Shown here piece after piece: positions 7,855-64,000 of a stretch of 64,000 nucleotides of DNA (the first letter of the stretch is position 1; every line of letters starts with the position of its first letter). Source of the stretch: an uncultured bacterium. GTDB lineage: Bacteria > DRYD01. The translations under genes and the position numbers were made by a program. The notes under the pieces are model-generated. The model saw only the letters and a program-made list of their open reading frames with translations, searched no databases and was not told the DNA's origin. The stretch spans positions 5,328-69,327 of the forward strand of contig CAKZQG010000028.1 of the NCBI GenBank assembly GCA_937139605.1, read 5' to 3'.

Positions 7855-8376
7855 GTGGTTTTATCTTTAATAAAAAAGGAAGAAGTAATAATAGGTATAG
7901 ATGCAGGAACTACGCGAGTAGGCTATTCTATTTTAAGTATTTATAAAGGTAAGTCTAAAAATCTTTCTCAAAATTCCAAAATTAAGTTAATTTCTTTTGG
8001 GTTATTAAATATTACTGAAACTGAGCATCACTTAAGATTAAAACAAATTTATAAGGAATTTATTAAACTTTTAAAAAAATATAAGCCTAAAAAAGTTATC
8101 ATAGAAAGGTTATATTTTAATCTAAATGCTAAAACTGCTATGGAAGTTAGCCAAGCTGTTGGGGTTATAACTTTAGCTTGTGTTTTAAATAATGTTTTTG
8201 TAGATTATTTAACTCCAACTCAAGTTAAATCTATAATAACTAGCAATGGAAAAGCTACAAAACAAGATATAGCCCAAAAAATAAAACAGTTCTTTAATAT
8301 CCAAGAAAAACTAATAGATGATATTACCGATGCAATTGCTATTTCCTTGGCTTTTGTTATAAAGGAATATACTTAA
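7855..8376 (+). CDS. ruvC: Holliday junction resolvase RuvC
   Basis: 173 residues, normal RuvC length. The RNase H fold signatures are present: GIDAGTTRVGYSI with the first catalytic Asp, VIIERLYFNLNAKTAMEVSQ with the second acidic residue, and DDITDAIAISLAF with the last two. RuvC resolves four-way junctions with RuvAB, whose genes are not in this window. The best start is GTG 7855, only 31 bp after the Nudix gene and without a good ribosome site, so the start is the uncertain part. It is probably co-transcribed with the Nudix gene. Confidence 0.93.
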   Translation: MVLSLIKKEEVIIGIDAGTTRVGYSILSIYKGKSKNLSQNSKIKLISFGLLNITETEHHLRLKQIYKEFIKLLKKYKPKKVIIERLYFNLNAKTAMEVSQAVGVITLACVLNNVFVDYLTPTQVKSIITSNGKATKQDIAQKIKQFFNIQEKLIDDITDAIAISLAFVIKEYT

Positions 8377-29541: not shown

Positions 29542-29660
29542 GGGTGGCACCGACCTACTCTCCCACAGGGTCGCCCCATTAGTACCATCGGCGCTGGTGG
29601 GCTTAACTTCCGGGTTCGGAATGGAAACCGGGTGTTTCCCCACCGCTATTGGCACCACCC
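29542..29660 (-). rRNA. rrf: 5S ribosomal RNA
   Basis: 119 nt on the minus strand, GC-rich against AT-rich flanks. The ends pair (GGGTGGTGCC with GGTGCCACCC), and the conserved internal segments CATTCCGAACCCGGAAGTTA, CCGATGGTACTA and GGGAGAGTAGGTC are present. A T-rich run follows the 3' end and can complete termination with the closing helix. No 16S, 23S or tRNA gene lies within reach on either side, so the 5S gene is unlinked. Confidence 0.97.
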
Positions 29661-31561: not shown

Positions 31562-33082
31562 CTATTTTATTTTTTCATACTCAAAATTAATAACATTCTT
31601 TTTTACTTTATCAAACTCTATCCCTATTATGTATATTTTTTCATAATTTAAATATTTCTTATGATACTCTTTTTCTTTAATTTGTTTTAATGCTTTCCCT
31701 TTTTCTTTTTGATTCTCTACTACCTTAAACTCCATTATATACACTACTTTTTTATCTACTACTACTGTTAAATCTATCCTCCCTTTTGATGTATTATCCT
31801 CTATTATTACATTATATCCTGTAGAATATATCAATCCATATATTGCTGCAGAATATACATACTCATTTTTTAATACTTCATAACTTATTGTATTTATAAA
31901 CACTTCTACTTGCTTTCTTATTTCCTCTAAATTCTCTTTTATTAATGCTAATTCTAATGGTTTTGTTATATATTGCTTATAATCTCTTGTTATATAAAAC
32001 AATAACTCATTGTTAAATGCTTCTCTTACTTCTCTATTTGGATAATCTAATGTATATACTTCCCTTGCACCTATTTTTTCTATCTCTTTTATTGTTAAGT
32101 ACCCTGTTTGAAACATTAATGCTTCTATACTTATATATTCTATGTCAAACTTCTCTAATATCTCTTCTGTATAATATCTCTTATACAAATAAGGTAAATC
32201 AAAGTTCTTTTGTTTTATTATTTTAAATAAAAACTCGGTCCTTCCTGTTTCATACCAATAATTCCTTATCTCCTTTTTATCTAAATATAACAACACATCA
32301 AATGGATTATACACTTTACTACCTAAAAAGTTATATCCGTTATACCACTCTTTTACCTCTTCTAAATTTACATCTTTTAAATACTCTTTAAAATAATATT
32401 CTAATTCGTCTTGGGTATATCCACATATATTTCCATACTTTTTATCTAATGATATATCCTTTAACTGATTTAACCCACTAAAAAGTGATACTTTTGCAAA
32501 TTTTGAAACCCCTGTTACTAATACAAATCTTATATATCTGTCTAATGCTTTCAATACTGAATAAAATGCTTTTAACATCTCTCTTATCTCATATACTTCT
32601 TCCTTATCTATTAAATCTAATATCGGTTTATCATATTCATCTACTAATATCACTACCTGCTTTTTAGTTTTTTCACTTATATGCTCTATTAATAATTTCC
32701 AATTTATATATACACTTAAATTCTCTTTTATTTCATAATCATATTTCTCTGAATACCTTAATATTACTGAATATATCTGTTCTTCTAATAAGTGTTTATT
32801 TAACGTCTGGATTTCCCCGAAATCTACCCTAATTACCGGATATTTTTCATTCCAATCCCATTTATCTTCTATATACAGTCCTTTAAATAATTCTCTTTGA
32901 CCTTCATATAGATACTCAATAGTAGATAAAAGTAGTGATTTTCCAAAGCGTCTTGGCCTACTTAAAAACACATACTTTGAATTACTTAACAACTCATATA
33001 TGTACTTTGTTTTATCAACATATACATAATTTCCCGTTATTATATTCTTAAAATCACTTATCCCTATTGGTAATTTTTTCAT
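31562..33082 (-). CDS. AAA-ATPase with C-terminal PD-(D/E)XK nuclease domain (PF09820/PF08011)
   Basis: 506 residues from ATG 33082, behind AAGGGG; a GTG three codons upstream is too close to that site. The N-terminal ATPase part has KLPIGISDFKNIITGNYVYV, the P-loop SRPRRFGKSLLLSTIEYLYE and Walker B VVILVDEYDKPILDLI. The C-terminal nuclease-like domain has GRIDLTVVVDKKVVYIMEFK, with the Asp and ExK of PD-(D/E)XK. Proteins of this group are multi-copy in many anaerobes; a role in DNA processing or defence is suspected but unproven. A second copy is cut by the right edge of the window. Confidence 0.9.
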   Translation of the reverse strand: MKKLPIGISDFKNIITGNYVYVDKTKYIYELLSNSKYVFLSRPRRFGKSLLLSTIEYLYEGQRELFKGLYIEDKWDWNEKYPVIRVDFGEIQTLNKHLLEEQIYSVILRYSEKYDYEIKENLSVYINWKLLIEHISEKTKKQVVILVDEYDKPILDLIDKEEVYEIREMLKAFYSVLKALDRYIRFVLVTGVSKFAKVSLFSGLNQLKDISLDKKYGNICGYTQDELEYYFKEYLKDVNLEEVKEWYNGYNFLGSKVYNPFDVLLYLDKKEIRNYWYETGRTEFLFKIIKQKNFDLPYLYKRYYTEEILEKFDIEYISIEALMFQTGYLTIKEIEKIGAREVYTLDYPNREVREAFNNELLFYITRDYKQYITKPLELALIKENLEEIRKQVEVFINTISYEVLKNEYVYSAAIYGLIYSTGYNVIIEDNTSKGRIDLTVVVDKKVVYIMEFKVVENQKEKGKALKQIKEKEYHKKYLNYEKIYIIGIEFDKVKKNVINFEYEKIK

Positions 33083-33290
33083 AAAAAGCACCCCTTTTTA
33101 AATAAACATTGTCTAATTAATATTTAAATTAATTTTAAATATAATCCTGTTATTTTTTAAGAATTTATTCAATATGAAAATCTAATTCTAAAAAAATTCA
33201 TTCAAAATAAAAAATTAATCTTAAACAAAGAAAGAAATTCTAAATAAAAAAATAACTCTAAAAATTTTTAGTTTAAATGGATAAATAAAA

Positions 33291-42064: not shown

Positions 42065-42598
42065 ATGAAGATTTTATTAACTGAAAATCAAATACAATCT
42101 AAAATAAAGGAATTAGCTAAATCTATAGATGATTTTTTAATAAAAAATAAAAGAAATGAAAATGATATCCCAGTTTTTATATCTGTTTTAACAGGTAGTA
42201 TATTCTTTTTTTCAGATCTTATTAAAAATATTAAATCAGAGATAATAGTAGATTATTTAAAGGTATCAAGTTATTCAGGGGATACAACAACATATAATGT
42301 AAAAATATTAAAAGACATAGAAATTGATATAAAAGATAAGATAGTTTTTATAGTGGAGGATATAGTAGATACAGGGCTAACCTTAAAAAAAATAATAGAA
42401 TTCCTAAAAGATAGGGAGCCTAGGATTTTAAAAATATGTTCCTTATTAGATAAACCTTCTAAGAGATTAGTTAAAGTAAAAGTAGATTACAAGGGTTTTG
42501 AGATTCCCCCAGAATTTGTAGTTGGATATGGTTTAGATTATAATGAACTTTATAGAAATACTCCTTATATTTTTATCTATGAGCAACAAAATGAATAA
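42065..42598 (+). CDS. hpt: Hypoxanthine phosphoribosyltransferase
   Basis: 177 residues. Salvages hypoxanthine and guanine to IMP and GMP using PRPP. The PRPP-binding motif is FIVEDIVDTGLTLKKIIEFL, with DYLKVSSYSGDTTTYNVKIL as the flexible loop and the C-terminal VVGYGLDYNELYRNTPYIF typical of this enzyme. It starts 14 bp after ftsH and overlaps the next gene by 8 bp. Confidence 0.94.
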   Translation: MKILLTENQIQSKIKELAKSIDDFLIKNKRNENDIPVFISVLTGSIFFFSDLIKNIKSEIIVDYLKVSSYSGDTTTYNVKILKDIEIDIKDKIVFIVEDIVDTGLTLKKIIEFLKDREPRILKICSLLDKPSKRLVKVKVDYKGFEIPPEFVVGYGLDYNELYRNTPYIFIYEQQNE

Positions 42599-43538
42599 AT
42601 TATTAAATGAAAATATTCTATTTGAAGTAATCCCATACCCTATAAAATGGGATGATTATAAAAAAGAAAATTTCATAAAAAAAGTAGCAGAAATTATTTA
42701 TAAAAACAATATCAATGTTATAAATGTTCCGGAAGTAGTTATAGAAAATAGGAATTCTAATAGGAATATTGCTTATTTAAAAAAAGTCCCACCATTAGAA
42801 TTTGCTAATTATCTAAATAGTTATTATTATCAAAATTATAAAAGAAAATTGGATTTTATTATTAATGTGGTAGTTCCTATAAAAGAAAAAGATTATTTTT
42901 TAAAATATTGTGAGAATTTAGTTATAAATGGGATAAATAAGATAGTATTGGTAGGTAAAGATAGAAGCGATAGAGAGTATATAGGATATGAAGTTTTACA
43001 AGCTTCTGAATTACTTAAGAAAATATATAAAGATAACCTAATCTTAGGGGGCATAACTATCTTCCATAGGAAAAATGAGTATCTAAAAATAATTCAAAAA
43101 AAACAAACTAATATTGAGTTCTTTATATCTCAGATTATTTTTGATAAACAAAATTTTTATAATTTATTAAATGATCTTAAAAACAATAGTGTCTCTAATT
43201 TATTTAATTTAAAAATATATTTATCTTTAGCTACTATTAATTCATTTAAGGAATTTAATTTTATGAAATTCTTAGAAGTTTATTTTCCTGAAGATATTTT
43301 ATTAAATATTAGTAATATAACTAATGATAATGATTTAAGAATTTTCTTTAATAAAATTATCGATAATCTGATAGTAGAGTTAAGTGAGATAATATTTATT
43401 TTTAGGAAATATAATTTGGATATAGGGTTTAACATAGAACACATAATGTATGATAATTTAAACTTTTCTGAAGAATTATTAAAGAAAGTTAAAATAAAAT
43501 TAAAGAATATAGAATTCTTAAAAACCAAAAACTTCTAA
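42591..43538 (+). CDS. Methylenetetrahydrofolate reductase-like protein
   Basis: 315 residues from ATG 42591, which overlaps the hpt stop; upstream in-frame starts at 42543 and 42579 lie deeper in hpt and are less likely. The TIM-barrel pattern of the MTHFR family is visible: FEVIPYPIKWDD at the N-terminus, INVINVPEVVIENRNSNRNI, NKIVLVGKDRSD, GGITIFHRKNEYL and FFISQIIFDKQNFYNLL. It is closer to the MetF-like proteins of anaerobes than to E. coli MetF. No folate-pathway gene is adjacent, so the assignment to C1 metabolism is by fold only. Confidence 0.65.
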   Translation: MNKLLNENILFEVIPYPIKWDDYKKENFIKKVAEIIYKNNINVINVPEVVIENRNSNRNIAYLKKVPPLEFANYLNSYYYQNYKRKLDFIINVVVPIKEKDYFLKYCENLVINGINKIVLVGKDRSDREYIGYEVLQASELLKKIYKDNLILGGITIFHRKNEYLKIIQKKQTNIEFFISQIIFDKQNFYNLLNDLKNNSVSNLFNLKIYLSLATINSFKEFNFMKFLEVYFPEDILLNISNITNDNDLRIFFNKIIDNLIVELSEIIFIFRKYNLDIGFNIEHIMYDNLNFSEELLKKVKIKLKNIEFLKTKNF

Positions 43539-43600
43539 ACCTGATAAAAAAAGAGTTTGTATTCAGTTTTAAATTTTGTATAATATTTTGTAAAAAATTA

Positions 43601-44102
43601 TTAAAATTTCCATTTTTCTCTTTGAAATAATTCTTTCAAGTTAATACAATCAAGATTATATTGTTTAGAAACATAAGGTATTCTTTGTTGCTTAGTTTTT
43701 GATTCTTCCGTAAGAATTGTATATAGGTATTTTTTTGATGAAAATAACGATGGAGATAACCTACTCTTTTTAGTTTGTTCATGTCTTTTAGTTAATGCAA
43801 GTGCTATAATCCAATTTATTGGATGTTTTTCCTTCCTTAGCTAAGAATGGAAATTTTTCTATAATTTCTTTTTGTTTTTCAGTTTGATCTTTATCAGCTT
43901 TTATAAACATTTCTTTTTTGTTTTCTATCCATTTTTTTAGTTCTTTATCCATTAATTCATATTTTACTTCTTCAGGAGCTATTAATCTTTCTTGTTCAAA
44001 AAGCTCTTCCATTTTCTTCCAAATACTTGGAAAAATAATTTCAGGATATTTATCTTTCATTTCTATTAAAGAGCTTGTATCTATTATGTATATATATTTC
44101 AT
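43601..44102 (-). pseudogene. PIN-domain toxin of the DUF4411 family, frameshifted
   Basis: Start ATG 44102. The N-terminal part is a PIN nuclease (YIIDTSSLIEMKDKYPEIIF, with the first catalytic Asp; LIAPEEVKYEL). After KFPFLAKE the frame is lost within the run at 43824-43840; dropping one base there continues the family sequence as KHPINWIIALALTKRHEQTK to IPYVSKQYNLDCINLKELF and a stop at 43601. DUF4411 toxins pair with XRE-ImmA/IrrE antitoxins, and the antitoxin gene here overlaps the start by 4 bp. The reading frame as sequenced would give a truncated, inactive toxin. Confidence 0.82.
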
Positions 44103-45250
44103 CTTTTAGATAATAATTTTTCTAATTTATCCAGATTTTGATAATTAATAGATAAAAATTCAAGTAAATCTTGGGTAGTAATAAGGCCTTTTTCTTTACT
44201 TTCTAAAACAGTTAAGATAAATTTTTCTCCTTTTTCTTGAACACATTTTTTTGCTGGAGTTATAATAGATTTCCCTTGATTTTTTTTAGATTCAATTTTA
44301 GATTCAATTTTTGCTTTTTGTTCTTCATAATCTTCATAGCTTAGGACATTTAATAGCATTAATTTTGTAAGGATAGCTTTTTTGCTTACTTTAAATTCTC
44401 GTGATAAATTTTCTATTATTTTTGGCATTACTTTTTCTGTTTTAACTAATAATTCAAAGAGCTCATTTTTTTCAAGTTCTTTTGTAGGGATTAGGAATTC
44501 AGATGCGAAAGTATCACACCATTTTTCTATTTCTTTAGAAGTATCTGAATCTTGAATATATATTTCAGGGATCCCTAAAATTAGATGAGCATATTCATGG
44601 AATAAGGTAAATATTCTGGCAAGGATATTATCTTGCGAGTTTATTACTATCACATAGAGTAAGGTATCCATTAATGAAAAGCATCTTGCATCTTCTAATG
44701 GAAATTTGAATTGAAATACTAAAATATTTTTTTATTCAATAAATTTTCTCCAAGTATTAAAAGCTTCATAAGCATCTTTAAATTTATATTGTTTTTCGAT
44801 AGGAATTCTTGATTCATTACGTTCTTTGATAGCAACTTCTATTGGATTATCTTCAAGTTTAGTTTTTTCTATTTTAGGAGTAAAGCTAATATTTAAGTCT
44901 AAAATTATCTCATTTACAATAGATTGGTAATATTGTGCTTTTCTTATTGCAAGTAGTAGCTCTTTAGAGATTCGTTTTTCAGTTTTAGGTAATACTCTAA
45001 ACGCAGAAGAAATTGGGAGTTCTTTTGGGGCTTGTGGAAGGAAAAAAGCCGATGTTGGTCGTTGAAATAGTTTAGAAAGTTGTTTAATTTGTTGGAAAGT
45101 TAGGAATTCTCTACCAGCTTCTATTTCTTTATAATTTTCTATTGAGATTTTAAGTTTTTTAGCTATTTCTTCAATACTCCATCCTGAAGTTTCTCTTAAA
45201 TACTTTATAACCTCAGGATTTATCTCAACTTTAAATGACTTTTTAGGCAT
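44099..45250 (-). pseudogene. XRE-type regulator/ImmA-IrrE metallopeptidase with an in-frame stop
   Basis: Read as one frame this is 383 residues with a TAA at 44732-44734 (codon 173). The N-terminal part has a helix-turn-helix (WSIEEIAKKLKISIENYKEI). After the stop the same frame goes on without a gap: NILVFQFKFPLEDARCFSLM, then FTLFHEYAHLILG with the HExxH zinc site and WCDTFASEFLIPTKEL. This is the standard HTH plus DUF955 antitoxin architecture. An internal ATG at 44671 could start a separate protease fragment but has no ribosome site. With the toxin frameshifted too, the pair looks inactive. Confidence 0.85.
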
Positions 45251-45377
45251 AGTTTTCTCCTTAATTTATTATTGCTTAATTTATTGTTTTTCCTTAATTT
45301 ATAATTCATTAATTTATCATTGCTCATTATTTATTTATCCAAATTATTCTTAATATTCTTTAATAATTCTACTGAAT

Positions 45378-48300
45378 TTAGTTATAATTTTTTTCAATTA
45401 TTTGAATTTCTTCGGTTGTTAGGTTATATAGTTTATAAACGAGTGCGTTTATTTCATTTTCAAGGGTTTTAACCTCAGATTGCTTATTTAAATCACTCTC
45501 ATAATCTTTACAACTAGTTATATCAATAATCTTATTAACTAATATCTCTATTCTTTTAGCTATCTCCTCGTTTTCTAGTGTGATAATAGGAATCGGAATT
45601 CTCTCTACATATTGATTAGATAAAAGAAAACCAGTATCGGAAAGTTGATGAACATAAGTTTTTACATAAAAATCAATAACTTTTGAATTTAAAATCCCTA
45701 ATATAAACCTTAAATTTTCTCCTGTCATAAAAGCTATACTATCAAGAGTATATAATCCTTTTGGAACAAAGCAAAAAGAAAAATTTTTTGTAACTCTCTG
45801 CCAAACTATCTTCTCTTTTTCAAATTCAGAGTAATAATCACAATGTCGAAGTTCCCACCAATAATCGCCTTGATCATCCCTATTAAGTAATCCTTTGCCT
45901 TTACCTTTATAATCTTTGAATTGCAAAAAGTAATTATATAACGAAGAAAAAATATTTTTAAAAAATTCTTCTGGATTTTCTTTTTTACAATGCTTATTCG
46001 TCCAACCTGCTTCAATTTTTATAATCCAAAATCCTTCCCATTTATATCTCCATTTGTGAATATCTCTTCCCCTTAAAACTGGCTTTATTATCTCTTCTGT
46101 TCTTTTTCTTTCATCCTCTGTTCTACAGTTTGCTAAAATTCTGTTTCTTGTTTGTGTATCTATTATAAAAGCTTCATTAAAACCCGTTAAAACCCCACGA
46201 TAAATTTTTACATCCCACTCTTTTAAAGGTTTCCCTACCCTTTCTATCTTTTCTTTTAAAACCAATTCCTTATCATCAGCAAGTGTCCAAGCATCATCAG
46301 AAAGCTTATTCTGCTCCATAAACCTATAATTAGATCTTATATACTCTATAATTTCACTACAATCAGAAGGAACTATACAATAACTGAATTTCCAACCTTC
46401 TAACAATTCCTGACTTTTCAATTTTTTAAATAATACTATACAAGTATCTACAGTTTGCTCAAAAACCCTATACCCCCCAAAATCTACTAAAGTTATTAAA
46501 AAAGTATTTTTCTTTAAAAAACTTCTTAAATTTTTCCCATACTTAGCTCTCATCCATTTATTACTTGAAATATAACAAAGAACACCTTCCTCCTTTAAAA
46601 GCTTATAACCCCTTTCATAAAAATAAACATAAATATCAGCAGTTGAATCAAAAACTTTATAGCCTTGATCCTTTAATATAGGTTTAAATTCTTTAATTTT
46701 CTCTTGCCTTATATACGGAGGATTCCCGATAACTATATCAAAACCATCATCCACTCCAAACATCCATTCACTATCAAAAAAATCATTCCCCTTTAATTGT
46801 GAAAAAATATCAAAATCCACTATCTTTTGTATTGTTATATCAGGGAAACTATTTTTCTTTAATTCTTCTTTTATTTCATTTTTTATGTTTTGAGTTTTCT
46901 CTTTTAATCTTAATTTCTCTTTACGAGTCTTTATCCTAAAAAACTTTTTATAAATATTTTTTAATTCTTTTTTAAGATTCTTAAGTTTTTCAGTTGATAA
47001 AAGTAATTGCGGTTTTTCTAAAGCTACTAAGCTATTAGCTGTAATAAATTTTGTTTCTAAATGAGGAAGAGCTTTTATCCCAAAATTCTCTTTACTCCTA
47101 TCTACTTTTTGGTCTATTATAAGACTTAAAAAGAAACGCAATTTAGCTATCTGAATAGCTATATTCTGAATATCAACCCCATAAATAGAATTCTCTATTA
47201 TATACAACTTCCTAGAATAATCCGGATAATTAAAAGAATCATCAAAATTTTCATTTAATTCTCTTAATAAGCTTATCTTTTCTTCTTGATCTGATATTTT
47301 TAATACCTGTTCCAGTTCATTTATAGCTTTATTATATTGTAATTCATACCAATATTTATTTTCTGGATCTATTTTATTAAGGATATAAACTAATTTTTGA
47401 AGGATCCCCATAGGAAATGCCCCAGAACCCACCGCTAAATCAATCACTTTTAAGCTATCTATAGCTCTTATTAAATCCTGACGCTCATTCTCATTAAGCT
47501 TAAGATCTAATTCATTCTCCTGATAACTAATAATATTTCTAAGTTTCTTATCATCAATAGAAGTCTTAGTTTTAAAATATTGAAATAATGATTCTTCTAC
47601 CATAAAATCTACGATCTCTTTAGGGGTATAATAAGAGCCTGTAGCTTTCCTAGCAGTTGTTCGAGTTTCAGGGTTATAAGAAGCCAAAAGGTTTTCAAAA
47701 ATATGACCTAATAACTCTGGATCAAGCGAAACCTCTATATCAATAGGAGATGACTCATCCGCTGTAAAATTATAATCCTTTAATATATTAATAATCCCCC
47801 TAACATTAACCTCTTTTTTTTCTCCATAAAAAAAACTAAGATCTTCTTTTTTTTCATTTGAAAAAAATAAGAAATCAGGTAGTTTAGCTCTTTTATTTTC
47901 ATTTCTACTAAAACCATCTATATAATAGGAATCATCATCTAAGCATTCAAAAAGACCACCATTAACAAAAGGGACCTCATCAAAAATCTTAATAAAATCT
48001 TCTTCAGTAATTAAAATCTTATCTTTATACCTAAAAAGTGTTTTAACCCCAAAATCAGTTCTTTGATAAATAAAATCTCCGTCTTTAGCGAACCCCCTAT
48101 CCTTAGCATAAGTATTTAAAGTAGCAAAAAATAAATTTTGTAAAATAACATTATAATAAGAATCCCCAGTTTTAAAATTTTTAACTATATTAAATAACTC
48201 ATTTTCATCAAAAATTTTTTCAGGGATAAGTCCTTTTTGTTTTAAAAACCAAACAAAAATAAGCCTTGTTATTAATCTTATCAAGTTCTCTTCAATATTA

Positions 48301-48941
48301 CCCCCCGGGAAATAAACTTCTCCAGTATGAGATAACTTTAAAGCCCAAGCATACCAATTTTGGATTTCAATAAAGAATTCTTTAGTAAGTGGGATAACAG
48401 AGAAGGAATTAATTATAGAAGGAAGCGTAGAAAAATCTCCTTCAGATATAGATTTTAAAAAAGTTCTGTAAGGTTTTTTGTTTTCTACAAAATAAGTATA
48501 TCTTTTAAAATGACTAAAATTAGTTTTACTAGGTAGATAAACTTTATAAACTAAAGAGAGCCTAAAATTTTTATTATCATCATAAAATACAAATATCCCA
48601 GCATCTAAACCTATATCGTTCCTTAAAATTTTTTTAGCTAATTCAAATTGATTCTTTTTACTTGATCTATCAGATAATACATCATTAACCCTTACAGCAT
48701 AACACTTTAAAACATTATCATCTATAAGGTTAACTTTTAAAAACTCCTTAATTTCAACAAATCTATCATTTTCAAAACTAAATAATCTATTATCTAAAAT
48801 ATCATGATTTAAATTTTTGAACTTAAAATCAGAAAAAATACTTTGTAAAGTTTCTAAAGAAAAATCATTAATAAGCTCCTCTAAATATTTATAAATTCTT
48901 TCATTAATTATTTTAGGTTTATATACTTCATATCCATACAT
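45378..48941 (-). CDS. Large N6-adenine DNA methyltransferase (Eco57I-like) of a restriction-type system
   Basis: 1187 residues. Adenine methyltransferase motifs: the SAM loop DLAVGSGAFPMGILQKL near residue 500 and the catalytic IGNPPYIRQEKIKE near 735, with the conserved ATGSYYTPKEIVDFMVEESL upstream. The C-terminal part (TLDSIAFMTGENLRFILGIL; LLSNQYVERIPIPII) is a target-recognition domain like those of type IIG and type I S subunits. I see no clear PD-(D/E)XK motif in the N-terminal 350 residues, so cleavage may be supplied by the helicase protein encoded 46 bp upstream. Likely role: self-marking and defence against foreign DNA. Confidence 0.88.
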   Translation of the reverse strand: MYGYEVYKPKIINERIYKYLEELINDFSLETLQSIFSDFKFKNLNHDILDNRLFSFENDRFVEIKEFLKVNLIDDNVLKCYAVRVNDVLSDRSSKKNQFELAKKILRNDIGLDAGIFVFYDDNKNFRLSLVYKVYLPSKTNFSHFKRYTYFVENKKPYRTFLKSISEGDFSTLPSIINSFSVIPLTKEFFIEIQNWYAWALKLSHTGEVYFPGGNIEENLIRLITRLIFVWFLKQKGLIPEKIFDENELFNIVKNFKTGDSYYNVILQNLFFATLNTYAKDRGFAKDGDFIYQRTDFGVKTLFRYKDKILITEEDFIKIFDEVPFVNGGLFECLDDDSYYIDGFSRNENKRAKLPDFLFFSNEKKEDLSFFYGEKKEVNVRGIINILKDYNFTADESSPIDIEVSLDPELLGHIFENLLASYNPETRTTARKATGSYYTPKEIVDFMVEESLFQYFKTKTSIDDKKLRNIISYQENELDLKLNENERQDLIRAIDSLKVIDLAVGSGAFPMGILQKLVYILNKIDPENKYWYELQYNKAINELEQVLKISDQEEKISLLRELNENFDDSFNYPDYSRKLYIIENSIYGVDIQNIAIQIAKLRFFLSLIIDQKVDRSKENFGIKALPHLETKFITANSLVALEKPQLLLSTEKLKNLKKELKNIYKKFFRIKTRKEKLRLKEKTQNIKNEIKEELKKNSFPDITIQKIVDFDIFSQLKGNDFFDSEWMFGVDDGFDIVIGNPPYIRQEKIKEFKPILKDQGYKVFDSTADIYVYFYERGYKLLKEEGVLCYISSNKWMRAKYGKNLRSFLKKNTFLITLVDFGGYRVFEQTVDTCIVLFKKLKSQELLEGWKFSYCIVPSDCSEIIEYIRSNYRFMEQNKLSDDAWTLADDKELVLKEKIERVGKPLKEWDVKIYRGVLTGFNEAFIIDTQTRNRILANCRTEDERKRTEEIIKPVLRGRDIHKWRYKWEGFWIIKIEAGWTNKHCKKENPEEFFKNIFSSLYNYFLQFKDYKGKGKGLLNRDDQGDYWWELRHCDYYSEFEKEKIVWQRVTKNFSFCFVPKGLYTLDSIAFMTGENLRFILGILNSKVIDFYVKTYVHQLSDTGFLLSNQYVERIPIPIITLENEEIAKRIEILVNKIIDITSCKDYESDLNKQSEVKTLENEINALVYKLYNLTTEEIQIIEKNYN

Positions 48942-48987
48942 AATAACTTACCCCCATTATCGATTATATAATTAATTAGTTATATCA

Positions 48988-51900
48988 TTATATTTTTAAG
49001 TTTTCTATAGCGATAATAATTTCTTCATGATGTTCTTTAAGATATCTTTGGATTTTTAAGATAAAATCTTCTCCTATTTCATTTTTTATAGCTTCAAGCT
49101 TTTCTATAATTTTTAATAACATTTTATCAAAATTATTATCTTTTAAATTATTGATTTTATTAATTATTTCTTCAAGTTGAGCAATTTCTTCTAAAAGGTA
49201 CTCGGAAACTGTGTGATATTCTCTTATATCTTCCATTAAATTAGAAATAAAAGGATAATAAGGTTTTAATTTTTGATGTTGTAATTGAATAATCCCCTTT
49301 AAAGTTCTATAACTAATTTCATATAAAGTATTAGATGCTCTGATAGTTTGATATTGTTCAAAAAAAGTTCCTTCTAATATTTGATGATAATTCTTCCAGA
49401 AAAGATTACTCAAAGGTAAATTAATATCTGTAATGTCTGCTTTGATTTTTTCAAAAACTTGTTGAAAATTTAAATTCTCAGGATATTTGTTATTATAATT
49501 TTGATAACCAATAAATAGATCTTTATTCTTTTTTATAAAAACCATAAGCTCATTATCATTACCTTTCTTAGAGATTTTAATTCTAACAGGAAGGTTTTTA
49601 AGATTTTCTAATACTTTGGGGTTTTTAGAGATAATAGAATCGAATTCTTTTTTAACTTTAGTATAGAAGCTTTCTTCTTCTTCTTCTTGGGGGATAGTTA
49701 TAAGTCTTTTATATAGTTCAGATGGTTGAGGTTCTTCATCTGGGCTAAAAATTTTAGAATCTTCTCCTAATACGTTATGAATCATAAACATTTTAGATTC
49801 TGCGATTTCTCGAGATCTTACATGATCTGCACCTTTCTCAGTTGGAAAGAAATTTATAATATAAATTTCATCATAAACTTTCTTAGCGATCCTATTAATC
49901 CTTCCAACTCTTTGAATAACTCTAACAGGATTCCAAGGGATATCGTAATTAATAACAACACCTGCTCTATTTAAATTAAACCCTTCTGAAAGCTTATCAG
50001 TTGTAAGAAGAATATCATAATTATCTTCTTGTTCAGAATATTGAGCATCAAAATTAGTATAAATTTCTCTAATAGTTTTATTAGATAAATTTTCAACGGC
50101 AACAAGCACCCTATTACTAAAATGCTTTTGAAGAAATCTCTTTAAATGAAAAACCGTATCCCTATACTCAGTAAATATTACTACCTTCCGCTTATCTTTT
50201 AAAAAATTTTTAACAACTTCAATAAGTTTATTAGCTTTAGAATCATTTTCTAATAAAGAAAGAGAGTCCATCTTTGACATTAAATCCTCAAATAAAGCAA
50301 TATCTGATTCTATATCATTAAAAAACTCTTCCTTTAATTTAAATTTATTAATTTCATAAATTTTATAGAACTGGGAATTAATTTTTTCTTCTTGTAAAGT
50401 TTTTTTATAATTTAGTAATTCTTCTAAGATTGAATCTTCATCTTTATTATAGATATCTTCCATAAGTTTTTTATCGAGAATAAATTTTTGAGTTTTTTTA
50501 GCAAAATCGAGAGATAATTTATAGAATTCTATAAAATTTTTTAGGCTTTGATAAAAAGCGCCAAAACTACTCTCAAATCGCTTAACAAGCAACCTTCTCA
50601 TTAAATCATAAAGGTTCCTCTGATATAAAAAAATAAAAGAATCCTTATTAAGAGATTCTTCTTGTTCTTGAGAATTAAAATAATCAAAATTAATACCCTT
50701 TTCATATAAAATAGGTAAATAAACAGCACCTTTAAATTTTCCACCTTCTTGAACAAGATAAAAAGATTTAATGACTTCATCATAAAACTCCAATTGCTCT
50801 TTAGTTAATTCAAAAAAAACCTCAATAGGATCTTTGATTTCAGAAAACTCTATATTTTCATAATCTTTAAAATATTTTAGATCTAAGCGGTTTCGTCTTA
50901 TAACAATCACTTCAAGAATCCCCTTAATTTTTAAAGCTAATTTCTTTGCTCTATCATTTACTTTAGCTAAATCATTAAATGAAATATGAGAGATTTTTTC
51001 AGAAAAAATACTGTTATAATAGCTAACTGCTCTCCTCCTTTTAGTAGAATCTTGACTATTCCAATGCTTTTTTATATAAGCTAACTTTTGGAACTCAGAT
51101 TCATAAGCTCTAAACCTATCTTCAAGATTTTGATCATAAACTATAGTAGATCTTTTAGGAATAGTAAATAGCTTTAAAAGAGCAAAGATATCAGAAGGAC
51201 GATTATTAAAAGGAGTAGCTGAAAGAAGTAAAACAGTTTTACCCCTACATATTTCCCTAAGATAATGATAACTCTCAGTTCTCTGATTTCTGAATCTATG
51301 AGCTTCATCTACTATAATAATCTCTATTTCCGGATGATTCTTAACAAAATTCAAAGCTTCCTTAAGTTTCCCTAAGGACCATACCTCCCAATCCCATAGT
51401 TTAAAATCTTCTAAATATTTTTTCCATCCAGAGGTTTTATCCTGATTCCCAATAAGATGCGGAGGACATATAACTATCCCCCTCTTTCCAAGTGCTTTGG
51501 CAGTTAAACACGCAATAATACTTTTACCCAACCCAACTACATCAGCTAAAATACAACCTCCATGTACCTCGCAATTGGCTAACGCTTGGGAAACTGCTGT
51601 TAATTGATAATCAAACGCCTTATATCCCCTTTCTTTTAAAATTAGTTTTAAATCTTCTATTTGATAACTCCCTTGATGTAATTCTAAATAAGTTTTAAGT
51701 AAATAAACATAAGCTTCAAAAGGAGTAATCTTTCTAAAAAAAGTTTCTTTATCAAAAATCTGAATAACTTTTTGGATATCATCTTCATTTAATTCTATAG
51801 CTTTTTGCCAAAGATTATCAAAATATTCTTCTGCTTCTTTAAAACCATAATCTTTAATTTCTACATTAAACTCATCTTGCTCTCTAATTCCCGCTTTAGT

Positions 51901-52389
51901 TAAATTACTACTACCGGTAATAATTAATCCTGGCAAAATAACCCTTGAATTCTCATCCATTTTAAAAAGATATAATTTAGCATGATTAGGTTCCTTAGTT
52001 TTCCTAATAACAATGATTTTTTTCAAAAGAAGTTCCTTAAAGAAATCTATTTGCTCATAAATTAGTTGGTTATCAAGTTCAGTTGAAGTAAAAGCTTTCT
52101 TAATAGAATTAAAGAAATCCTGCTTTAAATTATTGATATTAAAATTTTTTAGTTTTTTAGCGTTTTCATATATTCCATATATTCCAACATCTACATTTAA
52201 GCCAACTAAAATTTTGAGGAATTCTTGTGAAAGCTTTCCATTTTGATAAAATTCTTTAAGAGTTTCATAAAATATATTTAATCCTGAAAAATAAAAGAAC
52301 CCTACTAAAAATTTTAATTGAGAGCTTTTAGCTATGAGTTCTTTGATACGTTTTTCAAGATTCTTTTCTGGGGTATTCGTTATAAACAT
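48988..52389 (-). CDS. SNF2-family helicase with an N-terminal phospholipase D-like nuclease domain
   Basis: 1133 residues. Residues 1-190 are a PLD-like domain (LKFLVGFFYFSGLNIFYETL; NHAKLYLFKMD with the HxK pair near 133; ITGSSNLTKAGI). Residues about 255-880 are a SNF2-type motor: ADVVGLGKSIIACLTAKALG (Walker A), IIIVDEAHRFRNQRT (DEAH), LLLSATPFNNRPSD, KVVIFTEYRDTVFHLKRFL and NPVRVIQRVGRINRI. Coiled-coil and helical regions fill the C-terminus. Similar PLD-helicase proteins occur in DISARM and other methyltransferase-linked defence systems. It is the first gene after tRNA-Ser and precedes the methyltransferase by 46 bp. Confidence 0.9.
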   Translation of the reverse strand: MFITNTPEKNLEKRIKELIAKSSQLKFLVGFFYFSGLNIFYETLKEFYQNGKLSQEFLKILVGLNVDVGIYGIYENAKKLKNFNINNLKQDFFNSIKKAFTSTELDNQLIYEQIDFFKELLLKKIIVIRKTKEPNHAKLYLFKMDENSRVILPGLIITGSSNLTKAGIREQDEFNVEIKDYGFKEAEEYFDNLWQKAIELNEDDIQKVIQIFDKETFFRKITPFEAYVYLLKTYLELHQGSYQIEDLKLILKERGYKAFDYQLTAVSQALANCEVHGGCILADVVGLGKSIIACLTAKALGKRGIVICPPHLIGNQDKTSGWKKYLEDFKLWDWEVWSLGKLKEALNFVKNHPEIEIIIVDEAHRFRNQRTESYHYLREICRGKTVLLLSATPFNNRPSDIFALLKLFTIPKRSTIVYDQNLEDRFRAYESEFQKLAYIKKHWNSQDSTKRRRAVSYYNSIFSEKISHISFNDLAKVNDRAKKLALKIKGILEVIVIRRNRLDLKYFKDYENIEFSEIKDPIEVFFELTKEQLEFYDEVIKSFYLVQEGGKFKGAVYLPILYEKGINFDYFNSQEQEESLNKDSFIFLYQRNLYDLMRRLLVKRFESSFGAFYQSLKNFIEFYKLSLDFAKKTQKFILDKKLMEDIYNKDEDSILEELLNYKKTLQEEKINSQFYKIYEINKFKLKEEFFNDIESDIALFEDLMSKMDSLSLLENDSKANKLIEVVKNFLKDKRKVVIFTEYRDTVFHLKRFLQKHFSNRVLVAVENLSNKTIREIYTNFDAQYSEQEDNYDILLTTDKLSEGFNLNRAGVVINYDIPWNPVRVIQRVGRINRIAKKVYDEIYIINFFPTEKGADHVRSREIAESKMFMIHNVLGEDSKIFSPDEEPQPSELYKRLITIPQEEEEESFYTKVKKEFDSIISKNPKVLENLKNLPVRIKISKKGNDNELMVFIKKNKDLFIGYQNYNNKYPENLNFQQVFEKIKADITDINLPLSNLFWKNYHQILEGTFFEQYQTIRASNTLYEISYRTLKGIIQLQHQKLKPYYPFISNLMEDIREYHTVSEYLLEEIAQLEEIINKINNLKDNNFDKMLLKIIEKLEAIKNEIGEDFILKIQRYLKEHHEEIIIAIENLKI

Positions 52390-52462
52390 AATTTAATAAG
52401 AAATTGAATAGCAATTGCTAAATTATAATGAATTATAAGATTAAGAATTTACAGAGGGAATA

Positions 52463-52552
52463 CGGAGGAGGCGGGATTCGAACCCGCGGTATCCCTTTTG
52501 GGGATACACTCGATTTCCAGTCGAGCGCCTTCGACCGCTCGGCCACCCCTCC
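52463..52552 (-). tRNA. tRNA-Ser (GGA)
   Basis: 90 nt. Acceptor stem GGAGGGG pairs with CTCCTCC with one G-U. The D-arm GGTGGCCGAGCGGTCGAAGG is of the long-variable-arm type, the anticodon loop CTGGAAA gives GGA, the long variable arm (TATCCCC-AAAA-GGGATA) marks a serine tRNA, and the T-arm GCGGGTTCGAATCCCGC follows. No CCA is encoded. Its 3' end faces the defence island. Confidence 0.97.
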
Positions 52553-52710
52553 AATACTATATTATAAATTTATTCAAAATAACTTAAACTCCTCTTTAAT
52601 ACCTATAAAAAATAATATAAAACTAATTAAAGAAAACTAATTAAAGAAAATTAATTTAAAGAAAATTAATGAACAAATAAATTTAATGATAAAATTAACA
52701 TAGATAATAA

Positions 52711-63547: not shown

Positions 63548-64000
63548 TTAACCTATTAATATCTCATATTGAAAATTAAGTAAATTTTTATTGTGTTTAT
63601 CAAATTCTATCCCCACTAAATATATCTTTTGGTAATTTAAATATTTTTTAAAGTATTCTTTTTCTTTTATCTGTTTTAAAGCTTTACCTTTTCCCTCTTC
63701 TTTTTCTAACAACTTAAACTCTATTATAACGAAAGTTATATGAAATATATACACTACTTTTTTATCTACTACTATTGTTAAATCTATCCTCCCTTTTGAT
63801 GTGTTGTCTTCTATTATTACATTTAATCCCGTTGCATATATTAATCCATATATCGCTGCAGAATATACATACTCATTTTTTAATACTTCATAACTTATTG
63901 AATTTATAAATACCTCTATTTGTTTTTTTATCTCTTGTAGATCTTCTCTTTTAAATGCTATATTTATTAATGTTGTTTTATCTATTTGGTAATCTCCTGT
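63548..64000 (-). CDS. AAA-ATPase/PD-(D/E)XK nuclease-family protein, C-terminal part, cut by the right edge
   Basis: The frame is open from base 64000 down to the stop at 63548, so this is the C-terminal 150 residues of a longer gene; the GTG at 63754 is internal. It is a close paralogue of the protein at 31.6-33.1 kb (EVLKNEYVYSAAIYGLIYAT; GRIDLTIVVDKKVVYI; KGKALKQIKEKEYFKKYLN). It differs by a seven-residue insert between VVYI and the catalytic IEFK strand. Stretches of over 40 bp are identical at the DNA level to the other copy, indicating a fairly recent duplication. Confidence 0.88.
   Translation of the reverse strand, partial: TGDYQIDKTTLINIAFKREDLQEIKKQIEVFINSISYEVLKNEYVYSAAIYGLIYATGLNVIIEDNTSKGRIDLTIVVDKKVVYIFHITFVIIEFKLLEKEEGKGKALKQIKEKEYFKKYLNYQKIYLVGIEFDKHNKNLLNFQYEILIG
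63725..63749. repeat. 21-bp palindromic in-frame insertion in the nuclease gene
   Basis: TATAAC-GAAA-GTTATA (63725-63740) is a perfect 6-bp stem with a GAAA loop. Alignment with the paralogue at 31.7 kb shows that 21 bp (about 63729-63749) is present here and absent there. It leaves the frame intact. Confidence 0.7.

Follow-up and report, generated by a model that had tools for sequence, protein, structure and literature searches.

BREX-related (BR) Type-2 defence systems carry an HKD-endoDNase-Swi2/Snf2 fusion and an N6-adenine methyltransferase as a restriction-modification (RM)-like pair, and are defined by a DUF499 AAA+ ATPase and a standalone DUF3780 protein (PMC12839542). Type ISP enzymes such as LlaGI and LlaBIII bring together an Mrr-type nuclease, an ATPase motor, an N6-methyltransferase and a target-recognition domain (TRD), and both the type IIG/IIL enzymes (Eco57I, MmeI) and the PglX/BrxX proteins share an Eco57I methylase plus TaqI_C/TRD architecture. 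RosmerTA is an experimentally shown anti-phage toxin-antitoxin family in which RmrA, a protease-domain antitoxin, is paired with many different toxins (PMC10440598). Operons of an XRE-Zn peptidase and a PIN protein were predicted earlier as toxin-antitoxin systems (PMC2701414), DUF4411 proteins have been described as PIN-domain proteins (PMC13273310), and solved DUF4411 chains exist among structure records. Here we describe a locus with features of all of these at 43.6-52.4 kb of a 64,000-nucleotide stretch (hereafter the window) of contig CAKZQG010000028.1 from an uncultured bacterium of the DRYD01 lineage. We read it as a horizontally acquired, mosaic defence cassette between an MTHFR-like gene and tRNA-Ser, in which an RM-like core is intact and a RosmerTA-like passenger has a dead toxin, and give this reading a probability of roughly three in four. 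It adds to known kinds of defence system a new member that is mosaic and has decayed in part.

The two large genes of the cassette encode a PLD(HKD)-Swi2/Snf2 helicase and an Eco57I-type methyltransferase (Table 1). The pairing is that of the BR Type-2 systems, but neither DUF499 nor DUF3780 is represented among the open reading frames (ORFs) at 43.6-52.4 kb, and no Pfam match to the DUF499 ATPase was found in the five cassette ORFs. A literature search by name for the two-gene helicase-methyltransferase core returned no paper on the exact pair, with PMC12839542 as the closest text. The type ISP enzymes differ in their Mrr-type nuclease, whereas the cassette has a PLD domain and two separate genes; a 2210-aa open frame in the sister-genus genome G002 (C22, 12887-19519) does, however, join helicase and methyltransferase with both domain sets in the same overall order, and is like a single-chain ATP-dependent restriction enzyme in its predicted architecture. 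The methyltransferase (Pfam Eco57I, 7.8e-43; NPPY motif invariant) has structural matches to CamA, BrxX and MmeI, the last over residues 161-894, beyond the MmeI nuclease domain, and matches LlaBIII and LlaGI in their methyltransferase-TRD part only. Its N-terminal block has conserved residues (Q98, R127, S129, R147, T160) but, unlike the type IIG/IIL enzymes, no visible PD-(D/E)XK motif: no D...ExK pattern is present in the conserved block, although the structure search barely reached residues 1-180. The PLD domain of the helicase partner is therefore the likely nuclease. As in RosmerTA, a toxin gene comes directly after an XRE-ImmA gene in the cassette, and the match of an intact relative of the latter to RmrA spans most of the protein, but the toxin is a DUF4411 PIN domain and both genes are damaged in the window's genome. 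The Xre-Zn peptidase fusion with a PIN toxin is also that of the three-component COG2856-Xre and PIN prediction (PMC2701414), here tied to the helicase-methyltransferase core.

The cassette is absent from the corresponding site in the one available genome of the same genus (G001); the sister genus is represented by G002-G005, and the window's species by one genome. Contig C13 of G001 carries FtsH, HPRT and MTHFR, the same left neighbourhood as in the window, with FtsH 95% identical, and between its MTHFR stop codon at 8148 and the 3' end of tRNA-Ser(GGA) there are 127 bp, all intergenic, so that 8.9 kb is missing. Non-coding DNA outside the cassette in the window amounts to 62 + 72 bp, a total close to the 127 bp of G001. 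A preliminary description of this DNA had proposed looking for an empty site at tRNA-Ser in related genomes; one exists in this congener, and the same four genes do not occupy the same place throughout the clade. A second such comparison, at tRNA-Val in G002, matched neither flank to an empty arrangement in G003-G005. Cassettes of the same type are found elsewhere in the relatives, on contigs C16 and C17 of G001 and beside tRNA-Val on C22 of G002, with fragments in G003; G005 and G006 yielded no helicase of the cassette family.

The history of the helicase is incongruent with that of the genomes. The family is sporadic (54/386 genomes), and the window copy is 59% identical to that of Thermodesulfobacterium and 56-60% identical to those of Thermocrinis, Desulfonauticus and Sulfurihydrogenibium, against about 50% for the G001 copy from the same genus. 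In the helicase tree, the window copy groups with thermophiles of other phyla, and the G001 copy lies in a different, fully supported clade. As to a vehicle, there are no helicase homologues among 50,697 phage records, matches in IMG/VR reach at most 45% identity, and plasmid homologues in Thermus and Allomeiothermus, about 40% identical, indicate that plasmids can carry relatives and nothing beyond that. The cassette has no foreign base composition, its G+C content (GC) and third-codon-position G+C content (GC3) being ordinary for the window.

Comparison with G002, a member of another genus, shows that the methyltransferase gene has been exchanged recently and in part. Over the core block (48141 to 46142) the DNA is 94-100% identical, except for one 100-nt bin at 85%, and for residues 268-930 the synonymous divergence (dS) is 0.084, with a ratio of nonsynonymous to synonymous divergence (dN/dS) of 0.13, whereas dS for FtsH between these genomes is 1.41. 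In the next ~500 bp, which encode the TaqI_C TRD, identity falls to about 43-62% over most of the length and dS is 1.7; past the TRD it is back at 87-98% for the remainder of the methyltransferase gene and for the XRE half, and inside the ImmA half it drops to about 52%. The pattern is that of recombination between genera in which the specificity domain was exchanged, a process that two articles describe for other RM systems (PMC3983042, PMC3077401). Together with the empty site and the incongruent helicase tree, the contrast in dS supports the preliminary description's proposal of a transferred defence cassette.

Several points weigh against this reading. The G001 contig stops inside tRNA-Ser, so the far flank is unseen, and a PilB orthologue was not found in the G001 assembly. 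Across the sister genus tRNA-Ser has different surroundings, which are conserved, and MTHFR adjoins tRNA-Arg in the genomes where it was found (G002, G005); because both flanks have other contexts there, no outgroup gives the older state, and the direction, gain or loss, is left without that polarity. The near relatives are all fragmented drafts, so that the near-identical blocks may have been assembled into chimeras, or one of the lesions may stem from a sequencing error. Finally, the canonical spacing of the HKD aspartate, HxK(x)4D, is not kept in the helicase, and its PLD activity is predicted only.

One alternative is an ancestral cassette at tRNA-Ser that was cleanly deleted in G001, with only the methyltransferase core later replaced by recombination from another genus. 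No outgroup has the MTHFR/tRNA-Ser neighbourhood, and this alternative would account for the low-dS block being only part of the cassette, the helicase and the flanking methyltransferase regions being old relative to G002. It sits poorly, however, with a helicase nearer to those of other phyla than to the same-genus copy, and with a sporadic family whose cassettes are held at different places in the relatives. We consider it unlikely, and infer that the cassette was inserted at tRNA-Ser rather than deleted in G001.

How such an insertion occurred is a separate matter. The preliminary description had pointed to the tRNA 3' end as an integration site, and an integrative element whose integrase, since lost, put the cassette at this end of tRNA-Ser would fit the 73 bp between that end, which faces the cassette, and the helicase start, as well as the position of the G002 cassette beside the 3' end of its tRNA-Val. 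In a first set of 79 loci, a tRNA facing the cassette with its 3' end lay within 1.1 kb in 6, against 1.4 expected (p=0.0008). However, when the same test, fixed beforehand, was applied to an independent set of 37 loci, 1 such tRNA was counted where 0.6 would be expected (p=0.48), and the link was not upheld for the family; that all six tRNAs in the 37-locus set face the cassette with the 3' end is suggestive only. Nor does the locus itself retain the expected traces: no integrase is encoded among the cassette ORFs at 43.6-52.4 kb, the window has a single copy of the 21-mer from the 3' end of tRNA-Ser, and no 11-mer is common to the two ends of the cassette. The ORF list and the 21-mer count agree with the earlier remark that neither an integrase nor a second copy of the tRNA end is seen near 43.5 kb, and the integration-site proposal itself was not supported. 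We regard tRNA-targeted integration as improbable; the mosaic is better matched by homologous recombination, in flanking sequence or within the cassette.

Pairing of the two core genes is conserved well beyond these genera. A same-strand Eco57I-type methyltransferase lies within four genes of the helicase in 60/80 loci from many phyla, and is directly adjacent in 41/80. The helicase matches the PADLOC 'HKD+Snf2' model C3a139 (2.4e-35) and has RapA-like structural matches in a Foldseek search, and H136, K138, the GSSN motif, Walker A and the DEAH-type motifs are kept in 30/30 aligned homologues. A plausible interpretation is that the core constitutes a two-gene, ATP-dependent RM-like system, with enzymatic activities and a division of labour predicted from the domains. 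The methyltransferase would recognise its target via the C-terminal TRD and methylate adenine in host DNA as a self mark; on incoming DNA, an unmethylated target would be sensed by the methyltransferase and the partnered Swi2/Snf2 motor would move on the DNA, and the N-terminal PLD domain of the helicase would then cut or nick the unmarked DNA.

Related genes occur elsewhere in these genomes. The window's genome has two more helicase-methyltransferase pairs (C44, 30651-36594, and C11, 45173-50834), which belong to a distant clade with about 33% helicase identity; a DUF499-type candidate upstream of the C44 pair is UvrA and was dropped. Apart from the fusion on C22, G002 has a shorter methyltransferase homologue, about 52% identical, at C12 9283-14404 beside an AAA/OLD-like ATPase gene, with no helicase in the stretch read.

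The toxin-antitoxin module is lesioned in both genes. XRE and ImmA halves share a register, with a lone in-frame TAA between them (GAATAAAAA in the window versus GAATCAAAA in G002, a TCA to TAA change), and the window XRE half is 96-97% identical in amino acid sequence to the intact G002 gene. Single-gene XRE-ImmA proteins are intact in both G001 (390 aa) and G002 (370 aa); that of G001 matches PADLOC RmrA at 1.3e-22 over residues 8-384, and the window copy does so in two halves. The DUF4411 gene is frameshifted at the segment that reads NADPYLIALAL in the intact 173-aa G001 homologue, with loss of a catalytic Asp, and what remains of the domain stays open, in a different frame, to about position 43601. 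XRE-ImmA directly precedes DUF4411 in 19/21 DUF4411 loci, and the module is probably a RosmerTA-like operon (XRE-ImmA/IrrE and DUF4411 PIN), broken here and presumably functional in G001. In an intact pair, the XRE-ImmA/IrrE protein would repress or neutralise a PIN RNase that arrests the infected cell; in the window's genome the restriction core is intact, the toxin dead. In G002, XRE-ImmA is intact and DUF4411 is reduced to fragments by lesions unlike those in the window. By this comparison the toxin was lost at least twice, independently in the window lineage and in G002, which argues against sequencing error.

The different decay of DUF4411 in G002 also bears on whether mosaic and lesions alike could be assembly artefacts, whether through base errors or through contigs that join two related cassettes from the same sample. 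Fragmentation of all the close genomes would favour this, as would the presence in G001 of two contigs with 97-98% identical ends and different contents. The shared blocks are, however, 94-100% alike rather than identical, and their differences are mostly synonymous for the number of sites, as the dN/dS value indicates. The reading frames of the two large genes run uninterrupted across 7 kb, and both lesions are confined to the toxin-antitoxin module, in keeping with the earlier view of a partly decaying cassette with a broken toxin-antitoxin pair, and we think artefacts very unlikely to be the cause. That nothing is broken, the XRE and ImmA frames being two working ImmR/ImmA-like proteins and the short DUF4411 a regulator, is the least credible alternative: both halves are open, and XRE and COG2856 often occur as separate genes (PMC2701414), but the single-gene form is intact in both relatives, the frames are in register with a lone base change, DUF4411 lacks the C-terminal part of its domain including a catalytic Asp, and the ImmA frame has its first ATG only inside the domain.

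The locus as a whole consists of four genes on the (-) strand between the convergent MTHFR-like gene and the tRNA-Ser(GGA) 3' end, as the ORFs, the tRNA call and Pfam all agree; four same-strand genes between these two flanks had been noted before. The only ORFs of at least 70 aa at 43.6-52.4 kb are those of the helicase, the methyltransferase, XRE, ImmA and DUF4411. Pfam gives the MTHFR-like label weak backing (22.4 bits against a cut-off of 24). Elsewhere in the 64-kb window a 5S rRNA gene is present at 29542-29659, with no 16S or 23S rRNA at Rfam gathering thresholds.

Table 1. Features of the defence cassette and its flanks, in window coordinates.
Feature	Position	Strand	Remarks
PLD(HKD)-Swi2/Snf2 helicase	48988-52389	-	1133 aa, intact; Pfam PLDc_2, SNF2-rel_dom, Helicase_C
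Gamma-class N6-adenine DNA methyltransferase, Eco57I/type IIG-like	45378-48941	-	1187 aa, intact; Pfam Eco57I, TaqI_C
Methyltransferase core block near-identical to G002	46142-48141	-	DNA-level comparison
TaqI_C TRD, residues 953-1117	45591-46085	-	Pfam; exchanged relative to G002 backbone
XRE (HTH) half of RmrA-like XRE-ImmA/IrrE protein	44732-45250	-	Pfam HTH; cut by in-frame TAA
ImmA/IrrE metallopeptidase half, HEYAH retained	44099-44671	-	Pfam Peptidase_M78, 1.4e-11; read-through alignment
DUF4411 PIN toxin gene, frameshifted	43600-44102 (ORF 43788-44102)	-	Pfam DUF4411, 1-93/159
tRNA-Ser(GGA), intact	52462-52553 (Rfam 52463-52552)	-	3' end toward cassette
MTHFR-like gene, left flank	42543-43538	+	Adjoins tRNA-Ser in empty-site congener G001

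The two G001 cassettes (C16, 10220-16603, and C17, 1-5283), which represent either strain variants or two loci, are 97-98% identical at the methyltransferase ends and helicase starts and differ in the TRD and in the intervening genes. One contig has XRE-ImmA and DUF4411 at this place; the other has the gene of a 461-aa protein whose match to ApeA-HEPN is weak. Across the 80 loci, genes in or near this slot include those of AbiEii, Schlafen/AlbA, SIR2, Fic, RhuM, GajA-like and Abi_2 proteins. Sequence search returned no XRE-ImmA/DUF4411 pair in those loci, and the pair is thus one of many optional passengers. At one further locus (G017, C71, 9389-11797) a SIR2-domain protein, a candidate back-up effector, follows the helicase-methyltransferase pair. 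AAA-ATPase_like/PDDEXK_9 genes are repeated in these genomes (window 31562-33091 and 63548-64000; G001 C16 8361-9956 and C17 5460-6986); two of them flank the G001 cassettes in the opposite orientation, with about 68% DNA identity, and could be recombination sites.

One could tentatively go further and regard the cassette as a modular immune unit, with a conserved backbone and two swappable slots: the TRD, which would set the DNA to be marked and attacked, and, beside it, an accessory effector. Recombination between co-resident genera would have exchanged both. The accessory slot would hold XRE-ImmA and PIN, HEPN, SIR2, AbiE, Schlafen or other proteins, and would supply a back-up killer for when the restriction core is defeated. 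We hold this to be possible rather than probable.

No new mechanism is needed for the cassette. It appears to be a restriction-type system caught in modular evolution, with a catalytic backbone near-unchanged across genera, an exchanged TRD, and a toxin pair that is decaying in two lineages independently. Related bacteria have the cassette in intact and in broken form, which makes it possible to test the idea that defence systems come with back-up effectors that are disposable.

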